From: Sulfurifustis variabilis | Lineage (GTDB): Bacteria; Pseudomonadota; Gammaproteobacteria; Acidiferrobacterales; Sulfurifustaceae | Direction of reading: 5' to 3' | DNA length: 64,000 bases | Assembly: GCF_002355415.1 (NCBI RefSeq) | Contig: NZ_AP014936.1 | Span: 2,542,001-2,606,000 of the forward strand | In this document: positions 22,574-25,126 of the stretch, in pieces | How positions within the stretch are numbered: the first letter of the stretch is position 1 | Layout: each line of letters opens with the position of its first letter | Notes under the pieces: model-generated | Database searches by the model: none | What the model saw: only the letters and a program-made list of their open reading frames with translations | What the model was told of the DNA's origin: nothing | Translations under genes and position numbers: made by a program

Positions 22574-23239
22574 ATGGCTGCCCGCGCGCGCTGCCGGCTC
22601 GTCGTCCTGATCTCGGGACGCGGGAGCAACCTACAGGCGATCATCGACGCGGTGCGCGCCGGGCAGGTGCCGGCCGAGATCGCGGCCGTCGTCAGCAACC
22701 GTCCCGATGCCGCCGGGCTCTCGCGTGCCCGCGAGGCAGGCCTCCCCGTCGAGGCGGTCGACCACCGGGCCTACGCGTCCCGGGAGGAGTTCGACCGGGC
22801 GCTCCAGGAGCGCATCGACCGCCACCGGCCGGACCTCGTGGTGCTCGCCGGGTTTCTCCGCATTCTCGGAACCCGTTTCATCGAGCACTATGAAGGGCGG
22901 CTCGTGAATATTCATCCGTCTCTGTTGCCCGCCTTCCCCGGACTCGACACCCACGCCCGTGCGCTGGCCGCCGGGGTCCGCCGGCACGGGGCGAGCGTGC
23001 ACTTCGTGACGAACGAAGTCGACTGCGGACCCCTGATCGTCCAGGCGTCGGTTCCGGTGCTCCCCGGCGATACCCCGGCGTCCCTGGCGGAACGGGTTCT
23101 GAGCGAGGAGCACCGGATCTACCCGCTCGCGATCCGCTGGTTCGCCGAGGGGAGGCTTAGTATTAAGGATGGCAGGGTGCTGCTGGACGGGGCTCGTCGG
23201 CCGGAACAGGGGCTCGATATCCCCCCGCCCGAGGAATAA
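22574..23239 (+). CDS. purN: Phosphoribosylglycinamide formyltransferase
   Basis: GAR transformylase of 221 residues, third step of purine synthesis using 10-formyl-tetrahydrofolate. It has the phosphate loop ISGRGSNLQAII, the catalytic Asn-His in VNIHPSLLPAFPG, and the Asp in VHFVTNEVDCGPLI. The ATG at 22574 gives the usual N-terminus. Coupled with purM in one operon. Confidence 0.96.
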   Translation: MAARARCRLVVLISGRGSNLQAIIDAVRAGQVPAEIAAVVSNRPDAAGLSRAREAGLPVEAVDHRAYASREEFDRALQERIDRHRPDLVVLAGFLRILGTRFIEHYEGRLVNIHPSLLPAFPGLDTHARALAAGVRRHGASVHFVTNEVDCGPLIVQASVPVLPGDTPASLAERVLSEEHRIYPLAIRWFAEGRLSIKDGRVLLDGARRPEQGLDIPPPEE

Positions 23240-23295
23240 ACCGGCGACCGGCATCGTCTCTCTCTAGTCATAGCGGGAGGTCTCCGACAGACGCC

Positions 23296-23853
23296 ATGGA
23301 CGTACTGAAGACTCTTTTCTCGCGTTCGCGCGAGACGCGGGCCCGGCTGGAGCAACATCGCGCCCGGCTGTACCGCATCGCGTACGCGTGGACGCATAAC
23401 CGGGCGCTCGCCGACGACCTCGTGCAGGAAACGCTCGCGAAAGCGCTGGCGAAATCGGGTCAGTTGCGCGATCCGAACGCGGGCGAGGCATGGCTCTACA
23501 GCATTCTCGCGAACTGCTTCCGCGATCACTTCCGGCGCCAGCGGGATACCGAGCCGATGGACGAAATCGAGCTGGTCGCGGAGTCGACGCCCGAATCGGA
23601 AAGCAGCGAGCTCGAGATCGTGCGCAAGGTGCGTGCCGCGATGGGCCGCCTGCCGTTCCCCCAGCGTCAGGTCCTGAGCCTGGTCGATCTGGAAGGCTTC
23701 AGCTACGTCGAAGTCGCCAGGGTGCTGGAGATCCCGATCGGAACGGTGATGAGCCGACTCTGCCGCGCACGGGCGGCTCTGAAGACCCAGCTCATGAACG
23801 ACATGCAGCGCCTTGCCGGAGGGCAGGAAGCGAAGATCCGGAGGATCAAATGA
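23296..23853 (+). CDS. ECF-type RNA polymerase sigma factor
   Basis: A 185-residue sigma-70 family factor of the extracytoplasmic type: region 2 (LYRIAYAWTHNRALADDLVQETL) and region 4 (LPFPQRQVLSLVDLEGFSYVEVARVL, then IPIGTVMSRLCRAR) with a short linker. It directs RNA polymerase to a small regulon when released by its anti-sigma factor. The TGA at 23851-23853 overlaps the ATG of the anti-sigma gene (ATGA), so both are made together. It carries no extra domain. The regulon and signal are not known from sequence. The next two genes suggest a sulfur- or thiol-related cue. Confidence 0.93.
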   Translation: MDVLKTLFSRSRETRARLEQHRARLYRIAYAWTHNRALADDLVQETLAKALAKSGQLRDPNAGEAWLYSILANCFRDHFRRQRDTEPMDEIELVAESTPESESSELEIVRKVRAAMGRLPFPQRQVLSLVDLEGFSYVEVARVLEIPIGTVMSRLCRARAALKTQLMNDMQRLAGGQEAKIRRIK

Positions 23854-24584
23854 ACGAACAGAAACTCTCCGAAGAGTTCCTCAACGCCTTCGTCGACGAT
23901 CAGCTCGGGCCCGAGGAAAAGAGCCGCGCGTTTCTCGAGCTCAGCCGCGACGAGGCGCTCAATCGCCAGGTCTGCGAGCTGCGCAAGCTCCGCGACATGG
24001 TGCGCATGGCCTACGCGGATATCCAGCCCCCGAGCACCGAGACGGGCGCGGGCGGGCGCTCCGGGCGCCTGGGCATCGGAATCGCGGCCGCCGTCACGCT
24101 TGCGCTCGGCGTGGTACTCGGCTGGACGCTGCATCAACGCCCCGCCGAGCTGCACCCGGCGGTGGAGGCATCGGGCTCGATGCAGGTCCAGGCGCCGCAG
24201 GAAGACGCGACCGACGCGCAGCTGAAGATCGTCGTACACCTGAACGAGCGCGCGCCGCAGCGGATCGAACAGGCGCTCGACGAAGTCGAGTCGCTGCTGA
24301 AGCTCTACCGCTCGACCGGGCAGGCCGCGCGTGTCGAGCTCGTCGTCAACGGCGACGGTTTGGCGCTGCTGCGCTCGGACCTGTCCCCGGCGCCGGAACG
24401 CGTGCGCCGGATGCAGCAGGAGTACGACAACCTGACGTTCATCGCGTGCCAGAACACGATCGATCGGCTGAAGCGCGATACCGGCGTCGTCGCCCGCCTG
24501 TTGCCGGGCGTCGTCGTGATCGACTCTGGGGTGGCGCAGCTGCAGCGGCGCCAGAATCAGGGCTGGGCCTACATCCAGGCCTAG
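23850..24584 (+). CDS. Transmembrane anti-sigma factor with periplasmic DsrE-like domain
   Basis: A 244-residue membrane protein. Residues 1-55 resemble the cytoplasmic anti-sigma helix bundle (LSEEFLNAFVDDQLGPEE), without the zinc HxxxCxxC motif. A single helix at about 74-94 crosses the membrane. Residues 125-244 are periplasmic and align with the next gene's product: VVHLNE for VYHLNS, LVVNGDGLALL for VVMHGPGITLM, FIACQNT for FNVCANT, and a shared closing SGVA...QGWAYIQA / SKGYAYVKP. That fold is DsrE-like, and Cys200 aligns with the conserved Cys. I infer that it senses sulfur or thiol state and releases the sigma factor. Confidence 0.85.
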   Translation: MNEQKLSEEFLNAFVDDQLGPEEKSRAFLELSRDEALNRQVCELRKLRDMVRMAYADIQPPSTETGAGGRSGRLGIGIAAAVTLALGVVLGWTLHQRPAELHPAVEASGSMQVQAPQEDATDAQLKIVVHLNERAPQRIEQALDEVESLLKLYRSTGQAARVELVVNGDGLALLRSDLSPAPERVRRMQQEYDNLTFIACQNTIDRLKRDTGVVARLLPGVVVIDSGVAQLQRRQNQGWAYIQA

Positions 24585-24631
24585 ATACAACCACACACCA
24601 CTGCCGTTACCAGGAGTCTAAGGAGGCTGAT

Positions 24632-25075
24632 ATGAAGAAGTTCGTGACTGCGGGCATCGCCGCGCTGCTGGCGCTGGGAGGCATCGCCGGTGCCGCACAG
24701 GCCGCGGAGAGCGCCCAGCACAAGGCGGTCTACCACCTCAACTCGGACGACGCCAAGCACCACAAGGCGTTCCTGAACAACGTCCAGAACCACATCAACG
24801 CCGTCGGCAAGGACAAGCTCGACCTGCGGGTCGTGATGCACGGTCCCGGCATCACGCTCATGCAGAACGCCAAGTCCGACGAGGACGTCCGCAGCAAGAT
24901 CGACAACCTGAAGCTGCAGGGCGTGAGCTTCAACGTGTGCGCCAATACGCTGAAGGGCAAGAAGGTCAACTACAAGACGGACATGCACGACGTCTCCGAG
25001 AAGGACATCGTGCCGAGCGGGGTCGCGGAGATCGCGATCCTCCAGAGCAAGGGCTACGCGTACGTCAAGCCCTGA
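24632..25075 (+). CDS. Secreted DsrE-like protein
   Basis: A 147-residue protein with a cleavable signal peptide (about 1-25, ending AQAAES) and a DsrE/DsrF-like alpha/beta domain. Cys103 in FNVCANTLKG sits where DsrE-family proteins carry the sulfur-accepting cysteine. It lies 47 bases after the anti-sigma gene with a strong site (AAGGAGG) and ends at a strong terminator, so it may also have its own transcript. Its domain is paralogous to the periplasmic half of the anti-sigma factor, so it could be its ligand, competitor or sulfur donor. Confidence 0.85.
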   Translation: MKKFVTAGIAALLALGGIAGAAQAAESAQHKAVYHLNSDDAKHHKAFLNNVQNHINAVGKDKLDLRVVMHGPGITLMQNAKSDEDVRSKIDNLKLQGVSFNVCANTLKGKKVNYKTDMHDVSEKDIVPSGVAEIAILQSKGYAYVKP

Positions 25076-25094: not shown

Positions 25095-25126
25095 GCCCGC
25101 GGGTGCAGATCCGCGGGCTTTTTTTT
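25095..25126 (+). terminator. Rho-independent terminator
   Basis: GCCCGCGG at 25095-25102 pairs with CCGCGGGC at 25111-25118, followed by eight T residues (25119-25126). It closes the sigma/anti-sigma/DsrE operon. Confidence 0.95.

Follow-up and report, generated by a model that had tools for sequence, protein, structure and literature searches.

An ECF26-like sigma factor, an anti-sigma factor with a predicted DsrE-fold sensor, and their probable link to thiosulfate oxidation genes in Sulfurifustis variabilis

A three-gene locus of Sulfurifustis variabilis

We analyzed a 64,000-nucleotide stretch of Sulfurifustis variabilis (RefSeq assembly GCF_002355415.1, contig NZ_AP014936.1, positions 2,542,001 to 2,606,000; this whole stretch is called the window below) and report on three of its genes, which encode an extracytoplasmic function (ECF) sigma factor, a membrane anti-sigma factor, and a secreted DsrE-like protein (Table 1). 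A preliminary description made from the sequence letters had proposed this order, with the anti-sigma gene coupled to the sigma gene and a single terminator closing the group. The Pfam matches, the overlap of the anti-sigma start with the sigma stop in ATGA, and a stem followed by a T run behind the third gene bore out the layout, and we confirm that the three-gene system is real. The -35 element of the predicted sigma promoter overlaps the end of purN, and the region holds 2 terminator-like sites against 1.3 expected.

The anti-sigma factor consists of a helical N-terminal domain, one predicted membrane helix, and a DsrE domain, which the predicted topology places in the periplasm. With its signal-like N terminus, the secreted protein would lie in the same compartment, which is also the site of Sox action.

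Table 1. Features of the three-gene locus, in positions of the window
Feature	Position	Strand	Basis
Predicted ECF promoter, GGAATA-N16-CGTC (GGAATA 23233-23238, CGTC 23255-23258)	23233..23258	+	Motif search
ECF sigma factor gene, 185 aa, ECF26-like	23296..23853	+	Pfam Sigma70_r2 and Sigma70_r4_2 above cut-off
Membrane anti-sigma factor gene, 244 aa	23850..24584	+	Structure prediction; adjoining sigma gene
Anti-sigma N-terminal region, residues 1-60, single Cys42	23850..24029	+	Homology to the N terminus of the S. meliloti EcfR4-type anti-sigma factor
Predicted membrane helix, residues 77-94	24078..24131	+	Helix in model (low to middling confidence); hydrophobic by inspection
Predicted DsrE-fold sensor domain, residues 124-244	24219..24581	+	Structure superposition
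Cys200 codon (invariant Cys, end of the domain's third strand)	24447..24449	+	Conservation; strand 195-200 in model
Secreted DsrE-like paralogue gene, 147 aa	24632..25075	+	Pfam DsrE; signal-peptide-like N terminus by inspection
Intrinsic terminator	25095..25126	+	10-pair stem (25095-25118) and T run

The sensor domain and its conserved residues

The preliminary description had aligned the periplasmic half of the anti-sigma factor with the secreted protein, including one Cys, and had taken that half for a DsrE-like sensor. Both points held. The two sequences shared 24% identity over 120 amino acids by BLASTP (E 4e-8 in a single comparison) with the Cys aligned, and a profile-profile comparison gave a probability of 99.0% (E 2.4e-18, 119 columns); these scores rule out a chance similarity. 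In the profile search that the description had proposed, the secreted protein matched Pfam DsrE (PF02635) above the curated cut-off (E 2.9e-9, 37.6 bits) and the anti-sigma C-terminal half scored below it (20.6 bits versus 22.7, E 5e-4). We therefore call this half a DsrE-fold domain and a DsrE homologue and not a curated Pfam member. A match of the secreted protein to the XopAF model (E 3e-4, 20.7 bits, cut-off 200) was taken as chance.

In the structural model of the anti-sigma factor, residues from about 124 to 244 form a confidently predicted domain (predicted local distance difference test blocks of 84-98), preceded by a low-confidence linker. This domain superposed on MTH1491 (1l1s) with a VIA Z of 18.8 and a root mean square deviation of 1.3 Å over 110 residues, followed by YchN (Z 13.8), a TusBCD chain (Z 12.2), and chain B of DsrEFH (Z 12.1); it also superposed on ST0148, less closely than on MTH1491. 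A Foldseek match of the domain had an E value of 8e-10, and the secreted protein itself superposed on 1l1s with a Z of 18.3. Unrelated structures scored Z 6.8 downward, which rules out a different fold for the C-terminal half. As far as the predicted model can be taken, the sensor half has the DsrE/YchN fold, of the DsrE/MTH1491 type. MTH1491, ST0148, and YchN share this fold with the sensor, and the first two also share the Cys and a GW(A/I)Y end (in MTH1491 the Cys aligns at the Cys200 position and the end reads GWAYI), but all three are free-standing proteins with no anti-sigma part.

We counted residue conservation in 60 nonredundant full-length anti-sigma factors and 41 secreted proteins; these 60 anti-sigma factors, and the 57 loci considered below, are what was left once redundant entries with identical tails had been dropped. 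Cys200, Gly238, Trp239, and Tyr241 were invariant (60/60), and so the sensor Cys singled out in the preliminary description is indeed conserved among homologues. His130 was kept in 57 of the 60, as was Cys42, which lies on the presumed cytoplasmic side and perhaps has a redox role. On the secreted protein, the aligned Cys103 (codon 24938-24940) was kept in 39 of 41 sequences.

The source genome (G000) has 16 matches to the DsrE family, 14 of them above cut-off. Elsewhere in the phylum, DsrE proteins from other classes (loci L071-L091) have no sigma gene in their flanks, and most of them match the anti-sigma profile better than the secreted-partner profile.

Distribution, promoter motif, and kinship with ECF26

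Among 60 relatives searched at E 1e-3, with matches to the DsrE domain only counted in, 52 had an anti-sigma match. In a sample of 369 genomes of the class, 93 had a match at E 1e-15, among matches listed to about that value and with at most seven candidates scored per genome; 66 of the 369, from 41 families, carry a full-length anti-sigma factor, as picked by alignment ends among the listed matches (these are the carriers below). Across the phylum sample of 398 genomes, a match at E 1e-20 was found in 20; by alignment ends, the only full-length ones were in the source genome and two others of its class. A scan of genome contigs gave 2 loci only, and a plasmid search with the anti-sigma factor gave 16 records, none spanning 80% of the query.

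The preliminary description had called for a survey of the three-gene order. This order proved to be conserved, although not in every locus. The pair stood throughout, with a sigma gene adjoining the anti-sigma gene in 57/57 nonredundant loci. A secreted DsrE gene was linked in 38/57: it follows the pair in the same orientation in 28 loci and is divergent in 10 (the sequence in which divergent genes could be seen reached about 900 bp beyond the sigma gene start). In 19/57 the third gene was found in neither position. In one of these 19 (L059), the DsrE gene is convergent. One genome (G281; L240, 5084-9533) has two tandem sigma/anti-sigma modules, each with its own copy of the promoter motif described next, flanked by two secreted DsrE genes, and in another (G165; L044) about 1.6 kb separates two anti-sigma matches.

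Of 59 sigma upstream regions, 56 contain an exact copy of the motif GGAATA-N15/16-CGTC; mononucleotide shuffling of the regions, which keeps only the single-base content, gave 0.055 per set. The copy ahead of the sigma gene is the single match in the window, where dinucleotide shuffling gives an expectation of 0.05. Nine of the 10 divergent DsrE genes have an exact copy of their own.

The secreted DsrE protein could be an output only, a periplasmic sulfur carrier within the regulon, with the sensor having arisen by fusion from such a carrier and sensing alone. The motif at divergent DsrE genes and at some unlinked ones fits this, as do the loci in which no downstream or divergent DsrE gene accompanies the anti-sigma factor. 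That sensor and paralogue genes are linked in two distinct layouts fits direct contact instead, and DsrE-fold proteins tend to form mixed oligomers, which fits contact as well. We regard the output-only role as a serious contender, at a little under even odds, and it may hold together with the explanation that we prefer below.

The motif is the published ECF26 consensus (-35 GGAATA, -10 GT/CGTC). The sources cited here and below were available in part, and what we draw from them is limited to those parts. They give -35 GGAAT(A) and -10 CGTC for RpoE4 of Sinorhizobium meliloti and SigE of Starkeya novella (PMC6527743, PMC6180224), which are sulfite-responsive ECF sigma factors tied to sulfite oxidase genes (PMC3511301, PMC6527743). 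On an S. meliloti replicon, we found an operon of sigma, anti-sigma, and sulfite oxidase genes with GGAAT-CGTC sites ahead of both the sigma gene and the sulfite oxidase gene. The sigma factor of the window shares 43% identity over 160 amino acids (E 6e-30) with this S. meliloti sigma factor, whose gene stands two genes before that for sulfite oxidase and which we label RpoE4 type from its gene neighborhood. It was the best match among the ECF sigma factors of two S. meliloti replicons (94 bits), followed by the RpoE6 type (82 bits) and the rest at 75 bits or less. In a tree, 19 sigma factors of DsrE systems formed one clade (support 98/98) that stood next to RpoE4 with weak support and on long branches; RpoE4 and RpoE6 did not group together.

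The N terminus of the anti-sigma factor matched that of the S. meliloti EcfR4-type anti-sigma factor (37% over 51 amino acids, E 1e-8 in a single comparison), and a search of three alphaproteobacterial anti-sigma factors found no DsrE match. The anti-sigma factor thus resembles the EcfR type in its homologous N-terminal domain, in a single membrane helix as modeled, and in the sigma gene upstream, but in place of an RsiW-like periplasmic domain it has the DsrE domain. The C-terminal half of EcfR4-type anti-sigma factors has some similarity to RsiW (PMC6180224). On inspection, residues 1-60 contain one Cys and no His, and we rejected a zinc anti-sigma factor. The hallmark of that class is an HxxxCxxC motif.

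Because the anti-sigma N termini match and the alphaproteobacterial C-terminal halves have no DsrE match, we read the locus best as an ECF26-like system in which the sensor has been swapped for a DsrE domain on a conserved sigma-binding part. RpoE4/EcfR4 and SigE share with it a related sigma factor, the anti-sigma N terminus, the promoter consensus, and a target in sulfur oxidation; they differ in that their published target is sulfite oxidase and not sox and in that the anti-sigma C-terminal half lacks a DsrE match. We also looked at 12 sigma relatives in four noncarrier genomes. Four of them (L276, L277, L280, and L286) have an anti-sigma factor whose N terminus matches that of the window, with different C-terminal halves where an open frame was available; upstream of the 12, the exact motif was found in none and a partial one in one.

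The motif at sox genes and a proposed sulfur switch

The source genome has 10 motif sites against 3 for the reversed pattern. One of them ends 50 bp ahead of the start codon of soxB (TIGR04486, 868 bits). The motif also precedes a secreted DsrE gene with a metallo-beta-lactamase-fold gene behind it (a SoxH-related model scored 153 bits against a cut-off of 280, so this name is below cut-off), a further secreted DsrE gene, and a DJ-1/PfpI gene; five other sites have no convincing target. In relatives, motif sites precede soxB, soxX, soxY, genes for a Sulf_transp transporter, DsrE, DsbD, and thioredoxin-like proteins, and other genes. This target list is not a rate, since it comes from 60 of 165 sites that were picked by eye because their letters or position looked promising, 7 of which had no downstream frame. 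Many of the gene names rest on similarity or inspection, and part of them were checked with Pfam or NCBIfam; one gene called DsrE-like by eye (L174) had no Pfam match. A membrane protein gene of the PF03601 (YeiH-like) family lies behind the motif in G004, a similar-looking gene lies behind it in G011, and on a Bradyrhizobium betae plasmid a gene annotated as YeiH family lies beside a sigma/anti-sigma pair (L136, L166, L244).

Five genomes (G004, G136, G177, G260, and G291) have the motif ahead of soxX and again ahead of soxB. In two genomes of one genus (G211 and G321), the motif, the sigma and anti-sigma genes, and soxX, Y, Z, A, and B are colinear, with the DsrE gene divergent. In a genome of another family (G222), the sigma/anti-sigma pair and soxXYZAB are on opposite strands, about 2 kb apart, and soxX has its own motif. 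Because the motif leads to sox genes, we rejected an ordinary envelope-stress system.

SoxB, counted as a match at E 1e-100 or better (the weakest listed matches stop two thirds of the way along the query), was found in 63 of the 66 carriers, from 41 families, versus 80 of 303 other genomes (Fisher p 5e-27, uncorrected for kinship); from the agreement of parameters and listed handles, this search is taken to cover the same 369 class genomes. We then compared 30 soxB loci, the best-scoring of 143 SoxB genomes and not a random draw, from 19 carriers and 11 noncarriers. In the 300 bp ahead of soxB, the motif was present in 8 of the 19 carriers, from five families, versus none of the 11 noncarriers (p 0.014), and these eight copies were 73-132 bp ahead of soxB and always on its strand. 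Over the whole sox neighborhoods, there were 21 motifs in 243 kb of carrier sequence versus 2 in 135 kb of noncarrier sequence (one-sided p 0.0035), and the reversed control gave 0 in both. The 21 carrier motifs precede soxX (7), soxB (8), a transporter gene (5), and a sigma gene (1). Two of the transporter-side motifs read in frame as a conserved peptide in a different open frame, and a third is similar, so these three may be chance; with them dropped, the density comparison gave p = 0.010. Both noncarrier motifs stand before soxX (L266 in G120 and L269 in G419), in genomes whose anti-sigma factors match that of the window at the N terminus only.

We consider it somewhat better than an even bet that the locus encodes an ECF26-like sigma factor held by a DsrE-sensor anti-sigma factor, from which a reduced-sulfur intermediate acting at Cys200 frees the sigma factor for sox promoters; the switch probably turns on thiosulfate oxidation genes. 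In this scheme, the anti-sigma factor with its periplasmic sensor of the DsrE/MTH1491 type would keep the sigma factor at the membrane until, in the presence of reduced sulfur, an intermediate of periplasmic sulfur oxidation modifies or binds Cys200. Candidate signals would be tetrathionate or another polythionate, polysulfide, or sulfur delivered by SoxYZ or the secreted DsrE partner. Release might proceed by conformational change or regulated proteolysis, and the freed sigma factor would act at GGAATA-N15/16-CGTC ahead of its own operon and the genes for the secreted DsrE protein, soxXYZA, soxB, a sulfur transporter, and further secreted DsrE proteins. S. variabilis skN76 and Sulfuricaulis limicola HA5 use thiosulfate, tetrathionate, and sulfur (PMC5024460).

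Published work on DsrE proteins bears on the choice of signal. DsrE of DsrEFH and DsrE3A share with the sensor the fold class and a Cys that carries sulfur or thiosulfonate; they differ as sulfur-relay carriers, with no regulatory role described in the available parts of the sources (PMC3397948, PMC4175335). In Allochromatium, DsrE-Cys78 carries sulfur (PMC3397948). DsrE3A with tetrathionate yields a Cys-S-thiosulfonate and was unreactive with thiosulfate, sulfite, polysulfide, sulfide, and glutathione persulfide (PMC4175335). From this reactivity work, by analogy, tetrathionate or Sox-bound sulfur would be better guesses than thiosulfate. A more specific version, which we think rather doubtful, is a sulfur relay in which the secreted DsrE protein would take sulfane sulfur or thiosulfonate from Sox intermediates in the periplasm and pass it to Cys200 of the membrane-bound anti-sigma factor, whose loading would free the sigma factor and turn sox on.

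Several results weigh against a sulfur switch for sox. Beyond the 19 loci in which no downstream or divergent DsrE gene stands with the pair, three carriers (G111, G178, and G186) have no SoxB match. Eight of the 19 carrier sox neighborhoods have no exact motif (in three of these, the contig ends before soxX), and the genomes with a motif in the 550 bp ahead of any sox gene number 10 among the 19 carriers and 2 among the 11 noncarriers (Fisher p 0.12). At soxX, the source genome offers only a site with one mismatch, at -208, which is weak because a search allowing one mismatch in six carriers found no soxX site. Genome-wide, ten relatives gave 165 motifs versus 80 for the reversed control, about twofold, and with the 10 against 3 of the source genome this makes single motif sites weak evidence. 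On the chemistry, neither thiosulfate nor glutathione persulfide served as a direct sulfur donor to DsrEFH (PMC3397948). Aligning the sensor profile with DsrE of the source genome's dsr cluster paired Cys200 with Cys78 without significance (E 0.043, probability 1%), and neither the sensor nor the secreted-protein alignment matched this DsrE significantly.

The link to sox might also be indirect: the sigma factor might run the DsrE gene together with a small set of envelope genes, and SoxB might co-occur with it only through shared ancestry of sulfur oxidizers. The carriers are related, and the modest genome-wide excess, the per-genome comparison, and the motif before soxX in two noncarriers point the same way. 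The uniform placement of the soxB motif on the soxB strand in eight genomes of five families, with none in 11 noncarriers, and the colinear sigma, anti-sigma, and sox runs argue against it, and we judge an indirect link quite improbable.

Control of sox could also be real with a different signal, either sulfite or general thiol or oxidative stress, the DsrE domain then being a redox or dimerization module and no sulfane-sulfur receptor. The system shares its promoter consensus and a related sigma factor with sulfite-responsive ECF26, and Cys42, if cytoplasmic as presumed, could be the redox site. Against this, the three alphaproteobacterial anti-sigma factors have no DsrE match, so a different sensor goes with Sox as the likely target, and Cys200, Trp239, and Tyr241 are all invariant, as in a retained binding site. 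A sulfite or stress signal seems unlikely to us, though less so than the indirect link.

The preliminary description had inferred a sulfur-responsive ECF system of a kind that its author did not know. This interpretation is supported in part, by the predicted DsrE-fold sensor, the invariant Cys, the linked secreted paralogue, and a tie to sulfur oxidation through Sox genes that adjoin the pair or follow the motif, which is stronger than the description could see. A persulfide or thiol compound, sensed directly or by way of the secreted paralogue, was the signal that it proposed and may be the right one. Its claim of novelty falls in that sulfur-responsive ECF sigma factors as such are already known from ECF26. 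An ECF effect on sox is known as well, from Arcobacter butzleri, a member of the Campylobacterota. There, sigma2 resembles the present system as an ECF factor that raises sox transcript levels and differs in that the available part of the source describes no promoter motif or DsrE domain (PMC3445524). Our literature search, made in open papers and mostly by title, found no paper joining an anti-sigma factor with a DsrE domain, for which a catalogue entry may exist, and none on ECF control of soxB in sulfur-oxidizing Gammaproteobacteria.

To our knowledge, little is known of how free-living gammaproteobacterial sulfur oxidizers sense reduced sulfur and regulate sox. The system described here offers a candidate sox regulator in 66 of the 369 sampled genomes of the class, with a defined promoter and one Cys to mutate, and a case of a sulfur-carrier fold that would serve as the sensor half of a membrane anti-sigma factor. 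It suggests that ECF systems gain signals by swapping the periplasmic half while the sigma factor, the anti-sigma domain, and the promoter are kept. If the relay were true, the signal itself would be the loading of the anti-sigma factor with sulfur, a metabolic intermediate.

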